64,000 nucleotides of DNA from Ilumatobacteraceae bacterium (GTDB lineage: Bacteria > Actinomycetota > Acidimicrobiia > Acidimicrobiales > Ilumatobacteraceae), in assembly GCA_022425725.1 (NCBI GenBank), contig JAKMEY010000059.1, forward strand, positions 1 to 64,000, read 5' to 3'. The position numbers and the translations under genes were made by a program. Positions 1-5,263 of this stretch are shown here, one piece after another. The notes beneath the pieces are model-generated. The model saw only the letters and a program-made list of their open reading frames with translations. It did not search any database and was not told where the DNA came from. The first letter of the stretch is position 1. Every line of letters begins with the position of its first letter.

Positions 1-3000
1 GAACGGCATCAAAGTCAGCAGCGAACGACTTATTGCCTTCCTCATCTTGGGTGTAACACGATCCACCGAACGAATACTCGCAATCGTCAAGTTTGCCACC
101 GGCAATGACAACAGCGAGTTCCATCTCCCTCGTCTGTTTCACATCCCAGTTCGGGAACACACGAAGCGTGTATGTTCCGTCATCCAGTGCCATTCGAAGG
201 GCGGCAGGTCGAGTTGCGGTGTTTTCTTCTGTGTTGCCCCAATCGACCCAGTCGCATTCCCAGGGCTGATCTCCCTCATCACACACGACGGCTTCGGCGT
301 GCGCATACGGCATCCGAGTTGCACAGTCTGCCGACTCGCAATCTTCTTCTCGGTAGAGCACCGGCCCGTCGATCGCCGGTGTGCGTAGACAGGTGTCTTG
401 ATTGGTCACGTCGGTACCTTCAGGGCATCCTCCGACATATGAACCACCGCCGGAGGTCATGTTTGCGACGCCGTCGGTAACGGTGACCGCAACGACATTG
501 CGCACGCCTGATTCGAGGTCGTCCCATGATGGCCAGAACTCAACCTCATAGGAGCCATCGTCAAGGCTGATTGCGAAGCGACCCTTTCGTGAGCCGTCCC
601 AGCCAGTTCCCGTGCCGTCAACCCATTTTCCAGTGTTTGCCTCGTGAACCGAGAGCCATCCACCACGAACTGCGGTCGTGCCCTCTTGGTCATACAGGGT
701 GCCGTAGAGCGTTGGTGTCGGGTAGATCGCGACAAATCTTTGGGTCTCTGCGTCGTACGTCCACGTGTTTTCTGCACTGATTCCTGACACATCACATGCT
801 TCAGGGTCAGTGTTTCCTGCAACACAGTCACCGGACGCTTCGATGGTGAAGTCAACTCTGAACGGCGCGACCTCAACGTTGCCGCTCCAGTTCCACGGTG
901 CCTCTACCCGTAGGCGATAGGTGCCAGGTTCAACAATTGAGATTGCAAACGCGCCCTTGTTGTCACCCCTTTGCAAAGTATTTGAACCGCCGAGCCATTC
1001 CGACCATTCACCCATACACCAGTCAGGAATGTCGCCGTTTTCATCGCGTTCATCTTCTCCGCACCAGTTCTGCTCAGTGATCCGCTCCAAACCGATATGC
1101 GCATCACCAACAGGCGTTTCGCCATCGGGCGCATACAACGTGCCTCGGATGTTGGCGTCGACAAGCCGGGCGGTCAACCCATTGACAGCATCGCTGGCAT
1201 TGTCGTTCGAGCCGTCAGGTGTACACGACTGGCTGTACGGAGACGCAGACGACCTCGGATCTTCTGCGATCGATGCGAGGTCATCTGCGCTCATCTGACA
1301 CCAATTGCCGTCAGAGTTCACGGCCACCACGACAGTGCGCTTCGCATATCCGGCTGTGTTATCCCAGCTTGGGTTGGCGGTCACCCGGTAGTAATCGAGG
1401 GCATCTCCCTCAGAAGGTGGCAGGTCAATGTTGAAATTACCAATGCGGTCAACATTTCCCCAACCGAAGGTGTTGCTGCCGTAGTCGGTCCACTCCCAGC
1501 CATACTCGCTTGCGTTCCATGAGAACGCCTGCCATTGCTGGACCTCGACCCAACCGTCACCGATGCCAGGGCAACTATTTGCGTCGACCGCTGACGAACA
1601 ATCTGCATCGGGCGTGACAACACGGCCAGGCATGTTGCCTGCCTTCATCGTGAGCGTCACCGGGGTATCTGCACCGTAGAGCGCACCCTCCGCACAGGTT
1701 GGCACTCCGTCTGGTTCTGAATAGTTCGATGCGCCAAGGCACCATGACCTTCCATCAGCCCAACCCGAATAGACGTAAACGTCGTAGCGTGCTCGCACAA
1801 CTCCAGCGTCAGTCGGTGGAGGGTTCAAGTTCATCTCGTACTTCGTTGAGGCTGTGTCGGTGGTGTCTTTATCGGCGAGCGCACCACCGAAGGTACCGTT
1901 CAATTCAGAATCAGGATTTCCCCACACCCGACGAGAATTCATGCCCGTTTCCCACTGGCAACCACCGTCATCGGTGCAGTACTGGAAGTCGATCCACACG
2001 TCAGCCAGAGGGCCTCCCTCGTACACCACTTGACCCACAACGTTTGCTCCGTCGAGTTCGATGTTGTCAGACAACGTTGTCGACATCGCAGTGGTTGGGT
2101 TCGCGCAGTCCCAAGCGGTCGCAACCGACTGCGACGAGGCGTATGCCACTGCACTGCCGTTACTGCAGACAACCAGATATTTCGTTGTGCGAGCGTATTC
2201 AGTTGAGTCCCACGGGGGTTCAAAGTTGAGTTTGTAGGCCCCGTTGGATTCCAACTTTGACGCAAAACGACCGTCTTCGTCGGTATTCATCCAAGAGCCT
2301 GACCACTGCCAGTGCTCGTTGTCAGAGTTCCAACTTTCGATGTTGACGTGTCCCCAGGCAACCGGATCAAGGCCTGCCAACAGCACACCTCGAACGTTCG
2401 GAAGTTCAAGTGTCATCCCGTAAAACGTTGCGGCACTACTGCACGTAAACCCGTCAGTTGGGGCCAAGCCAAGTTCGTTCAGATCACTTTCGGCGAGCTC
2501 GCCAACACAGGCTTTGCTTGCCGAGTCAACGTGCACATACAGGGTGCGAGTGGCGTAGCCGTCTTGGGCTTGGAATCGCACTCGGTAGTCGCCAGCGGGT
2601 AACGCAAGAGCGAATTCGCCATCTCTTTCGATGTGAGTACCCTCAACTTCAGAGTTCCACTCATAGCGCCCGATCTCGGAGTCCCACTGAGTAACTTCCA
2701 CCCACGTGTGCTCAACCGGGGTTCCTGCAAGGTCACTTCCATCTTCGGGGTACAGCAAAGTGCCGACAACGTTCGGACTGTTAAACCGCATCACATAGCG
2801 GCCAGAAAGGTTCGCAGAAACTCCAGAAACACTCAATGCACCAGACCCGCTTACCACGATCTCCACATTTATTACCGTCGTCGCAATTGCAGGACCGCTG
2901 TAGTCCCACGAGGGAGAAACTCGGAAACGGTACGTACCCGACTCTTCGATGAACAAGGAACCATGCCCGTCCTCGTCCGCGTCAGCACCACCAACCCATC

Positions 3001-4126
3001 TGCATTGGACGTCGCCATACTCTTCGTCAACTGCGCATAGTTCGTAGCTAATCCACGCAGCAACCGGGGCGCAACCAGCACCCGAGCCCGGCAGACACAC
3101 CTGCATCTTGAAGTTAGGGGTATCCATTGGCAGCACGAAGCGGCCACCTGATGACGCGAGACTTCCTGAGCAGGAAGGCTCGGCAGATTCCGGCCCGTTG
3201 TCAGTCCACGTGCAGAGCGACGCAGATGTGATGTTTCCGCTGCCAGGCACCTCGGTCACTTCAACGATGTAGCGCGTTGAGGCAACGTCATAGCCGCCAT
3301 CCCAGGGCTTGTTGATGTTGATCATGTAGTAGGTCGCTTCAGAGAACGGCAACGTCACAAGTCCAGGGACTGACGTTTCGTCTCCGCCCCATTCAGGGTC
3401 ATTCGTCTGTGTTTCAACTCCAGCGACGGAAGCCCAAGGGTAAGAACCTCCCGAACTGCCACCCGGACTCCACTGATCGACGTTGACCCACGCCCGTTCG
3501 ACTGGCGTTCCCGATCCATCCACCACGATCGCTTCGAAGTTCGCGCTCAAAAGGGGAATCACTATTGTGCTCGCACATGCCTGATCGGCATCGGCGCCAC
3601 AGAGCGGCTGGCCACTCGAGTAGATCGCCTCGACACCCCCACTGATGAGAACGTCGATATCGCGGCTCACGTACGACGAGCCTGACGGGGGATTCAAGCG
3701 ACCGCCCCACTCACCATCGGGCAAGGTTGTTGAGAATGTTCCATCGTCCGCAAAAAGATCTCGGTAGCAATAGTCCGGTGGCTGAGTTTGCAATTCCCCC
3801 CAGTCTTGATCGCATTCATCGATCTGGTTCCAGAGATTGATTGAGACCCCGGAGACAAGAGCTCCAGACTGGTCGGTCACGCGACCTGAGAAAGTTGTCA
3901 CCGACGGCGCCGATGGCACTCGGGTTCTCTGTAGTGCATCAATTTCAGCATCACTTAGCGATCGACTGTTCTCTGACTGAGCCACTACTTGTTCCGGACC
4001 AGACGAAGAAACTGATTCACTCCCGGAATCATCTGCTGCTTCCGCGACGTGACCAAGCGACGCCACGCTAAGGGCGGAAACCAGCGACATCGTGACAAAT
4101 CGCCGAGCAGGATGAAACTTACGCAT
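1..4126 (-). CDS. Very large secreted modular repeat protein (partial, C-terminus outside window)
   Basis: I read this frame by hand without a stop from the ATG at 4126 to the left edge, giving about 1,375 residues. The start follows an AAAGGGG ribosome site. Residues 1-30 form a signal peptide (MRKFHPARR, hydrophobic core, cleavage near AEA-AD), so the product is exported. After an acidic Ser-rich stretch come about ten modules of roughly 105-160 residues, starting near residues 78, 190, 335, 446, 575, 692, 830, 990, 1137 and 1252. A typical module opens with [PA]N[VIM]xG, continues with AWVxVxxW, then DGxFAxxL, GxYxLxF and PPWD/PSWD. Linkers carry a pair of cysteines, suggesting one disulfide per module. 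The pattern resembles carboxypeptidase-regulatory-like (Ig/transthyretin-type) beta-sandwich domains. No enzyme motif is visible; a surface adhesin or matrix role is inference. It is divergent from a lipoprotein gene across 201 bp. Confidence 0.85.
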   Translation of the reverse strand, partial: MRKFHPARRFVTMSLVSALSVASLGHVAEAADDSGSESVSSSGPEQVVAQSENSRSLSDAEIDALQRTRVPSAPSVTTFSGRVTDQSGALVSGVSINLWNQIDECDQDWGELQTQPPDYCYRDLFADDGTFSTTLPDGEWGGRLNPPSGSSYVSRDIDVLISGGVEAIYSSGQPLCGADADQACASTIVIPLLSANFEAIVVDGSGTPVERAWVNVDQWSPGGSSGGSYPWASVAGVETQTNDPEWGGDETSVPGLVTLPFSEATYYMININKPWDGGYDVASTRYIVEVTEVPGSGNITSASLCTWTDNGPESAEPSCSGSLASSGGRFVLPMDTPNFKMQVCLPGSGAGCAPVAAWISYELCAVDEEYGDVQCRWVGGADADEDGHGSLFIEESGTYRFRVSPSWDYSGPAIATTVINVEIVVSGSGALSVSGVSANLSGRYVMRFNSPNVVGTLLYPEDGSDLAGTPVEHTWVEVTQWDSEIGRYEWNSEVEGTHIERDGEFALALPAGDYRVRFQAQDGYATRTLYVHVDSASKACVGELAESDLNELGLAPTDGFTCSSAATFYGMTLELPNVRGVLLAGLDPVAWGHVNIESWNSDNEHWQWSGSWMNTDEDGRFASKLESNGAYKLNFEPPWDSTEYARTTKYLVVCSNGSAVAYASSQSVATAWDCANPTTAMSTTLSDNIELDGANVVGQVVYEGGPLADVWIDFQYCTDDGGCQWETGMNSRRVWGNPDSELNGTFGGALADKDTTDTASTKYEMNLNPPPTDAGVVRARYDVYVYSGWADGRSWCLGASNYSEPDGVPTCAEGALYGADTPVTLTMKAGNMPGRVVTPDADCSSAVDANSCPGIGDGWVEVQQWQAFSWNASEYGWEWTDYGSNTFGWGNVDRIGNFNIDLPPSEGDALDYYRVTANPSWDNTAGYAKRTVVVAVNSDGNWCQMSADDLASIAEDPRSSASPYSQSCTPDGSNDNASDAVNGLTARLVDANIRGTLYAPDGETPVGDAHIGLERITEQNWCGEDERDENGDIPDWCMGEWSEWLGGSNTLQRGDNKGAFAISIVEPGTYRLRVEAPWNWSGNVEVAPFRVDFTIEASGDCVAGNTDPEACDVSGISAENTWTYDAETQRFVAIYPTPTLYGTLYDQEGTTAVRGGWLSVHEANTGKWVDGTGTGWDGSRKGRFAISLDDGSYEVEFWPSWDDLESGVRNVVAVTVTDGVANMTSGGGSYVGGCPEGTDVTNQDTCLRTPAIDGPVLYREEDCESADCATRMPYAHAEAVVCDEGDQPWECDWVDWGNTEENTATRPAALRMALDDGTYTLRVFPNWDVKQTREMELAVVIAGGKLDDCEYSFGGSCYTQDEEGNKSFAADFDAV

Positions 4127-4327: not shown

Positions 4328-5002
4328 ATGGCGAGGCAACGGGCGGGTCTACTCACCATCACGCTAGTTTCAATACTTACCTTGCAGTCGTGCGGTTCCA
4401 CTGATTCGTCGCAGGGTGAGACCCCTTCGACGGCGTCTGTGCCCGCACAAGATGACGACACAGACCTCACGACCGAGACGACTCCCCCGACAGTCACGTC
4501 AACGTCAACCACCACACCACAAGCGTCAACAACATCATCATCGATCGCTGAGCAACACACCTCAACATCGCTGCCAGCAGATTCAACGACGACAACAACC
4601 ATCGAAGATCTCGACCAAGCGCAGGATCAACCATCCACGACACTCCCGACGACAACAACATCTGTTGCGGCGTCGACCACAACGTTCACTGGCTCGGGCA
4701 GTTCATATACGGCTTCTCCCGACGACCCCTTCGAATGCACCATCACGGTGATATCCGCGTCACCAGCCCCCGATGGCGAACGACAGTTTGATCTGCGTAT
4801 TGAAAGCACCTCAATACGGGGAACCGCCTATGTTCGCGTGAGTTGGGGGAATCAGCTGCGTAACCACCTCATCCCTCTCTCATTGGGGGGCGTCGGTATG
4901 ACGAGGGTCGCAGCAGGACTGCAGGGCGAGGTTGAGGCAGTCGTGTTTTCGGCCGCAGATTTCAGACCATCCTCTGAGCGTTGCTCAGCTTCGGCACCGT
5001 GA
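4328..5002 (+). CDS. Ser/Thr-rich lipoprotein of unknown function
   Basis: 224 residues. The N-terminus is a lipoprotein signal (MARQRAGLLT, hydrophobic stretch, then L-Q-S-C with Cys22 as the lipidation site), so it should be anchored to the outer face of the membrane. Residues about 25-130 are a low-complexity linker dominated by Thr, Ser, Pro and Gln, as expected for a flexible and possibly glycosylated wall-spanning stalk. The remaining 90 residues look like one small beta-rich domain (ECTITVISASPAPDG ... YVRVSWGN) with a cysteine near each end that could form a disulfide. I do not recognise the family. The start is the ATG after an AAAGG-like site. It is divergent from the large secreted repeat protein, so the two may share an upstream region and an envelope role; that is inference. 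Confidence 0.75.
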   Translation: MARQRAGLLTITLVSILTLQSCGSTDSSQGETPSTASVPAQDDDTDLTTETTPPTVTSTSTTTPQASTTSSSIAEQHTSTSLPADSTTTTTIEDLDQAQDQPSTTLPTTTTSVAASTTTFTGSGSSYTASPDDPFECTITVISASPAPDGERQFDLRIESTSIRGTAYVRVSWGNQLRNHLIPLSLGGVGMTRVAAGLQGEVEAVVFSAADFRPSSERCSASAP

Positions 5003-5080
5003 AGTTTGAAATCCTGAGCTGACGGTTGCGCCCGACTAGATCCTCATCTGCGACGCAACAACTTCGATAGAGAGCCTCTG

Positions 5081-5153
<73 letters not shown>

Positions 5154-5158
5154 TAACG

Positions 5159-5188
5159 ACGGACGGGGCCCCGAAGGACCCCGTCCGT
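5159..5188 (-). other. 13-bp hairpin with UUCG tetraloop between two tRNAs
   Basis: On the transcribed strand the arms ACGGACGGGGUCC and GGGCCCCGUCCGU pair over 13 bp with one G-U pair, closed by a C-UUCG-G tetraloop, the most stable class of RNA loop. The first base coincides with the final A of the encoded CCA of the upstream tRNA-Asn. No U-tract follows, so it is not a canonical intrinsic terminator. It may be a processing signal, an attenuator between the tRNAs, or a GC-rich terminator of the U-less type described in Actinobacteria. Confidence 0.8.
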
Positions 5189-5263
5189 GGCTCCGGGAGC
5201 AGGGCTCGAACCTGCGACCCGCTGATTAACAGTCAGCTGCTCTGCCAACTGAGCTATCCCGGA
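5188..5263 (-). tRNA. tRNA-Asn (GTT)
   Basis: Cloverleaf with acceptor TCCGGGA/TCCCGGA, D arm GCTC..GAGC, anticodon stem CTGAC/ (loop TGTTAAT) with anticodon GTT, T arm GCAGG-TTCGAGC-CCTGC and discriminator G. The 3' CCA is encoded (5188-5190), unlike in the neighbouring CAT tRNA. Transcribed first in a two-tRNA unit downstream of rpoD, with its own promoter-like sequence just upstream. Confidence 0.95.

Follow-up and report, generated by a model that had tools for sequence, protein, structure and literature searches.

An exported-looking repeat protein of the CarboxypepD_reg superfamily with paired cysteines and a conserved operon partner in Ilumatobacteraceae

Introduction

What does a small-genome actinobacterium do with a giant, tryptophan-rich repeat protein that looks exported and carries no recognizable enzyme domain? 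The question is raised by the first 4,126 positions of a 64,000-nucleotide stretch from an Ilumatobacteraceae bacterium (GenBank assembly GCA_022425725.1, contig JAKMEY010000059.1, positions 1 to 64,000; ‘the window’ is this whole stretch). An original prediction, made from the letters alone, described there an uninterrupted frame of about 1,375 residues with a signal peptide, built of about ten divergent, Cys-paired modules resembling carboxypeptidase-regulatory-like domains; adhesion or matrix was offered as a guess. We find a real repeat protein that belongs to the CarboxypepD_reg superfamily, is unusual within it and has a conserved operon partner; read most simply, from sequence, it would be a stiff rod outside the cell, with disulfides locking its sandwiches and connecting straps. 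The array, fold, cysteines and gene neighbors are taken in turn, followed by the roles that they allow.

Results

An old array of divergent modules

The gene is read on the minus strand as a single open frame of 1,375 codons, from an ATG at position 4126 (preceded just 5′ by a ribosome-binding-like AGGGG) to base 2 without a stop codon. The first ~30 residues (MRKFHPARR...AEA) are signal-peptide-like by eye, 75 residues precede the first module, and the protein is strongly acidic (pI about 4); the predicted frame and exported start are therefore as described. The left edge, beyond which the rest of the gene was expected, is the first base of the contig (C49 of the window's own genome, G000, a 2.13-Mb assembly that is 92.7% complete), and the 3′ end of the gene is lost. 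Because the same-genus homologue P0002 (L007:6572-11122) has 1,516 amino acids, about one module, the eleventh, would be missing; the last 240 residues of this homologue, used as a query, find no match elsewhere in the window's genome assembly.

Derived solely from P0003, the homologue in G036, which belongs to another genus, a module profile reaches 261.8 bits with the window protein, spread over ten stretches, against 7.9 for the highest-scoring of 200 shuffles; with P0002 it reaches 257.5 bits. In the window protein, the match is weak at the first and last stretches (domain c-E-values 1 and 0.0035). The ten modules (Table 1) are spaced 112–161 residues apart, with a shortened consensus of roughly PNxxGxV...PV...WxxVExW...W...G.F..L...GxYRxxxxPxW...VxVxxxG. 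The motifs first proposed as module marks do recur, but more loosely than claimed: the strict forms [PA]N[VIM]xG, AWVxVxxW, DGxFAxxL and P[PS]WD occur four times, once, twice and four times, respectively.

Identity between modules within the window protein is 12–29% (mean 21%), and Tandem Repeats Finder reports no tandem repeat; a recent slippage array is thereby ruled out, as the original prediction held. Each of the ten modules is nearest to the same-position module of P0002 (BLAST agrees), with identities for modules 1–10 of 35, 43, 43, 48, 47, 46, 51, 60, 60 and 66%; the two proteins are 50% identical overall. Between genera, module order is only loosely kept. On the single pair compared, the array is, to judge from these alignments, old and position-fixed within the genus.

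Table 1. Features of the repeat-protein locus in window coordinates.
Feature	Position	Strand	Description	Basis
Exported repeat protein	2..4126	-	1,375 aa, 3′-cut by contig end	Frame and homologue L007:6572-11122
Signal-peptide-like N-terminus	4037..4126	-	About residues 1-30	By eye
Module 1	3551..3901	-	Residues 76-192; 4 Cys; weakest profile match	Module drawing and profile
Module 2	3125..3550	-	Residues 193-334; 2 Cys, the linker pair	Module drawing and profile
Module 3	2783..3124	-	Residues 335-448; 4 Cys, all in core; linker without Cys	Module drawing and profile
Module 4	2408..2782	-	Residues 449-573; 2 Cys, the linker pair; modelled	Drawing, profile, model
Module 5	2054..2407	-	Residues 574-691; 2 Cys; best profile match; modelled	Drawing, profile, model
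Module 6	1646..2053	-	Residues 692-827; 4 Cys	Module drawing and profile
Module 7	1163..1645	-	Residues 828-988; 4 Cys	Module drawing and profile
Module 8	722..1162	-	Residues 989-1135; 4 Cys	Module drawing and profile
Module 9	380..721	-	Residues 1136-1249; 2 Cys	Module drawing and profile
Module 10	2..379	-	Residues 1250-1375; 6 Cys; cut by contig end	Module drawing and profile
Divergent lipoprotein-like gene	4328..5002	+	Probable cassette partner	Lipobox-like start, Ser/Thr/Pro-rich stretch, small two-Cys C-terminal domain

Family and fold

The family PF13620 (CarboxypepD_reg) matches the window protein in two stretches with 55.9 bits, above its cut-off of 32.3 bits; the homologues in G004, G036, G140, G222 and G322 also pass, and the partial G507 protein falls below (27.8 bits). 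Ig-like, FN3 and NOMO-type families remain under their cut-offs (Big_1, 14.9 vs 34.9; fn3_3, 15.6 vs 24.4; the NOMO-type family PF22898, 21.2 vs 27), and PF17802 is absent from the Pfam matches of the window protein at E≤1, although the G322 protein passes it (29.7 vs 23.1). No enzyme or carbohydrate-binding family reaches its Pfam cut-off on the window protein; an enzyme reading was rejected on the scores of Dioxygenase_C (14.5 vs 27.3 bits) and of the sole NCBIfam row, a chlorocatechol dioxygenase (11.6 vs 359). No solved structure is found by sequence match at E≤1.

An AlphaFold2 model of modules 4–5, computed from eight alignment rows, has a predicted local distance difference test score (pLDDT) of 75 and a predicted template modelling score (pTM) of 0.70. 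In VIA-align, its best rows include a fragment of a Bacteroides transglutaminase-family protein (Z 9.4, 1.9 Å, 79 residues) and the transthyretin (TTR)-like domain II of duck carboxypeptidase D (1qmu_A; Z 9.3, 1.6 Å, 77 residues), together with human carboxypeptidase N, 5-hydroxyisourate hydrolases, transthyretins and the FbaB protein 2x5p (Z 8.7). Most of the rows bear on module 5 (model residues 127–252), and two of the ten modules were modelled with fair confidence. The top four Foldseek rows for the module pair (SdrD, a streptococcal ancillary pilin, the SpaA shaft pilin and GBS52) are all Gram-positive surface proteins, with E-values of 1.6e-5 to 1.8e-3 and template modelling (TM) scores of only about 0.2. 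The model thus points to a TTR-like β-sandwich in the repeat modules, and the likeness to carboxypeptidase-regulatory-like domains with which we began is borne out by both profile and model. Literature searches for such proteins returned no description of the Trp signature, the strap Cys pairs or the gene cassette described below; judged by those searches, the repeat protein is apparently an undescribed variant of a known building block.

Paired cysteines and sparse lysines

The window protein contains 34 cysteines, an even number in every module (Table 1). One disulfide per module had been proposed from a Cys pair in the linkers; the pair is indeed present in the strap after the sandwich in nine of ten modules (C540 and C562 in module 4, C654 and C674 in module 5), but the proposal undercounts, with two to six cysteines per module. 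Even counts are found in 32/32 hand-drawn modules of three proteins (these cover only residues 1215–2491 of P0003) and in 72/74 profile-drawn modules of seven proteins. When cysteines were placed at random 20,000 times, excluding the last module of each protein, the observed parity was reached by 2 placements for G322, 15 for G222, 79 for G004, 83 for G000 and 245 for G036; the G000 and G004 results are not independent. Every cysteine that aligns to a residue of P0002 is identical there (33/33), and the 34th lies opposite a gap.

In CnaB domains, the Lys of the isopeptide bond sits in the first strand. The window protein has 17 Lys in 1,375 residues, none of them in module 1; a first-strand Lys occurs in one module of ten, and only 6/17 are conserved in P0002. 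Because the cysteines are both paired and conserved while so few lysines are kept, intramodular disulfides are likely and isopeptide bonds unlikely.

A fibronectin-III partner and a probable lipoprotein partner

An exported fibronectin type III (FN3) protein gene (PF00041) lies directly downstream of the repeat-protein gene on the same strand in G001, G004, G036, G140, G322 and G507, with spacings from a short overlap (G001) up to 54 bases. In G222 the contig stops 327 bases downstream, and the frame there reads by eye as a signal peptide followed by FN3; an FN3-like gene is thus found in 7/7 close relatives, six by Pfam and one by eye. The six carriers with a Pfam-confirmed partner have only about three to five FN3-coding frames per genome, so the adjacency is not a matter of chance, even if loci of related genomes do not count as separate cases.

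In the window's own genome, a cut 90-residue frame at the end of another contig (L011:1492-1764, G000:C81) shares 84% identity with the terminal part of the FN3 partner from G004, and may lie across the gap that adjoins window base 1. At its C-terminus, the FN3 partner carries a domain of about 120 residues that ends in ...DVxGYF or alike (L007:12231-12626). This domain has 21 matches in the window's genome; in one case it stands by itself as an exported domain (L010:254-796). In four proteins that contain it, Pfam gives the stretch no match at E≤0.001.

Upstream, a divergent lipoprotein-like gene (Table 1; no Pfam match at E≤0.01) is a probable cassette partner. The same arrangement is seen at L007:5734-6483, L008:1943-2713 and L057:2776-3858; counting the window, it is present at 4/6 loci that reach upstream (G000, G004, G036 and G140), the G001 and G507 contigs ending short of its position. 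The genes flanking the cassette vary from genome to genome, so the cassette occupies different sites. In the window, tRNA-Met and tRNA-Asn (5080–5263) stand directly beside the lipoprotein-like gene; a tRNA-flanked island as a rule is not supported, since a tRNA is present at just two (L007 and L070) of seven further loci. No plasmid relative was matched at E≤1e-5. Elsewhere in L007 (13284-14654), a branched-chain amino-acid permease has an exported-looking N-terminal stretch that scores 19.7 bits with CarboxypepD_reg, under the cut-off.

Distribution

Taking as presence a match to the module-alignment profile at E≤1e-6, and including the window's genome in each count, the array occurs in 6/221 genomes of the family, 8/397 drawn from the order and 6/396 drawn from the phylum. 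Within the genus, 3/16 genomes have it. Four of the genomes counted (G078, G452, G762 and G773) have one to three weak matches each and may carry other CarboxypepD_reg arrays. By eye, the G078 locus (L071:4404-6761) encodes a different CarboxypepD_reg-like array with a Thr/Pro-rich stalk followed by a C-terminal membrane segment.

Discussion

A proposed disulfide-stapled rod

Neither an LPxTG-like motif nor a C-terminal membrane segment is found in the homologues from G004, G036, G140, G222, G322 and G507; the G222 protein does contain a single hydrophobic stretch, some 150 residues short of its C-terminus. The protein looks exported, no enzyme domain passes its cut-off and these six homologues end without an anchor; a rod is the reading we favor. 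The repeat protein would be exported via Sec to the cell exterior, where about eleven TTR-like (CarboxypepD_reg) β-sandwiches in series would form a rod; a Cys pair would staple the strap after most sandwiches, and further pairs would lie in several cores. The rod would be made from an operon together with the exported FN3 protein, which probably holds its C-terminus near the cell, perhaps aided by the lipoprotein with its long Ser/Thr/Pro stalk. Because conservation rises toward the C-terminus, that end may be the one held by conserved partners, with the less conserved N-terminus pointing outward to touch a surface, a particle or another cell. We infer disulfides, rod shape, attachment, orientation and an adhesive or scaffolding role alike, and consider the chances about even that the protein is a secreted, disulfide-stapled TTR-like rod that is made with an FN3 partner and serves in adhesion or scaffolding. 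The initial guess of adhesion or matrix fits the export, the missing enzyme domain and the FN3 partner gene; it is not proven.

Several observations weigh against this reading. A model of 1,150 residues (76–1225) from two alignment rows has a pLDDT of 41.8 and gives a straight rod no support. Odd cysteine counts occur in the first G036 segment (7 Cys) and in one G140 module (3 Cys), and parity is weak in G140 (939 of the 20,000 random placements reach it) and not supported in G507 (2,470). PF00041 has no match in G222, where the FN3 neighbor is recognized by eye only, nor in the window's own genome, which we read as an assembly gap, and the more distant array of G078 has no adjoining FN3 gene. 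The lipoprotein counterpart in G222 is only weakly alike, and in G322 it is not divergently upstream, with a candidate at the opposite end of the gene set. The oxidation machinery is a puzzle: VKOR is found in 1/7 carriers (G322) and not in G000, G004, G036, G140, G222 or G507, and Thioredoxin_4 in 0/7, although both searches give matches in Corynebacterium glutamicum. PF01323 has 20 matches spread over all seven carriers; none of the 18 frames read by eye has a signal-like start, including all three of the window's genome (the two matches outside the 18 are L080 and L087, the latter with an unclear frame), and we take these frames to resemble cytoplasmic FrnE-like proteins. The known actinobacterial disulfide route is thus not recognized in 6/7 carriers, in searches that covered VKOR, Thioredoxin_4 and PF01323 in incomplete genomes.

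Other roles

The unusual Trp signature singled out by the original prediction (51/1,375 residues, with 39/50 aligned Trp identical in P0002) could instead offer sugar-stacking faces, that is, the protein could be an array resembling carbohydrate-binding modules that captures glycans of algae or particles on the outside of the cell. The weak Foldseek rows do include 3gf8 and 4iyk, both putative polysaccharide/carbohydrate-binding proteins; however, no carbohydrate-binding family passes its cut-off, and the signature weakens in G322, a relative at greater distance (17 of 1,910 residues are Trp), despite the same FN3 neighbor, so that we regard glycan capture as rather unlikely.

We judge similarly improbable a structural envelope component, that is, an S-layer-like or matrix lattice formed over the cell by the repeat protein together with its FN3 partner. 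The acidity of the protein, an S-layer fragment among the weak Foldseek rows and, in G036, a protein with a cell-wall-binding-2 domain encoded two genes upstream (L008:2-1861) would suit such a coat; most relatives should share a main coat, but the array is patchy in both family and genus.

A sortase-type adhesin stalk with Lys–Asn isopeptide bonds (CnaB/SpaA) shares the fold class, but the scarce, mostly unconserved lysines and the lack of an LPxTG-like C-terminus in the six homologues largely refute it on sequence grounds, and we give it almost no credence.

Returning to the disulfide-stapled rod, a bolder version is conceivable at long odds: a mobile cassette of three genes would encode a new class of surface filament or rod in actinobacteria, in which disulfides replace isopeptide bonds and are formed by an unrecognized exported thiol oxidase. 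An oxidase of an unrecognized kind is invoked because most carriers have neither VKOR nor an exported MdbA/DsbA-type protein. If the rod is real, the disulfide-stapled design would be added to the solutions already known for making stiff bacterial rods of TTR-like sandwiches outside the cell; the conserved gene set would be a defined one for studying how small-genome actinobacteria touch surfaces or particles, and a strictly Cys-paired protein in carriers without a recognized exported thiol oxidase is a testable puzzle.

Comparison with known systems

NOMO proteins are eukaryotic rods of transthyretin/Ig-like domains in the endoplasmic reticulum. The repeat protein resembles them in its long array of TTR-like sandwiches and matches NOMO models, with the window match under the cut-off and only that of G322 passing (44.7 vs 27); unlike them, it is bacterial and apparently secreted. 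With PF13620 domains it shares a family match above the cut-off and the fold of the carboxypeptidase D TTR-like domain, but its modules are 112–161 residues apart with long Cys-paired straps, carry conserved Trp at W(VIL)xV and PxWD, and are accompanied by no peptidase or other enzyme domain above the cut-off. Very large uncharacterized proteins, mainly of CarboxypepD_reg with Big and Glucodextran_B, have been recorded (PMC11573180). The CnaB/SpaA/SdrD-B stalk repeats of Gram-positive surface proteins are likewise exported, tandem prealbumin-like sandwiches; the repeat protein differs from them in that its homologues have no LPxTG anchor, Cys pairs take the place of Lys–Asn isopeptide bonds, and its operon supplies an FN3 partner.

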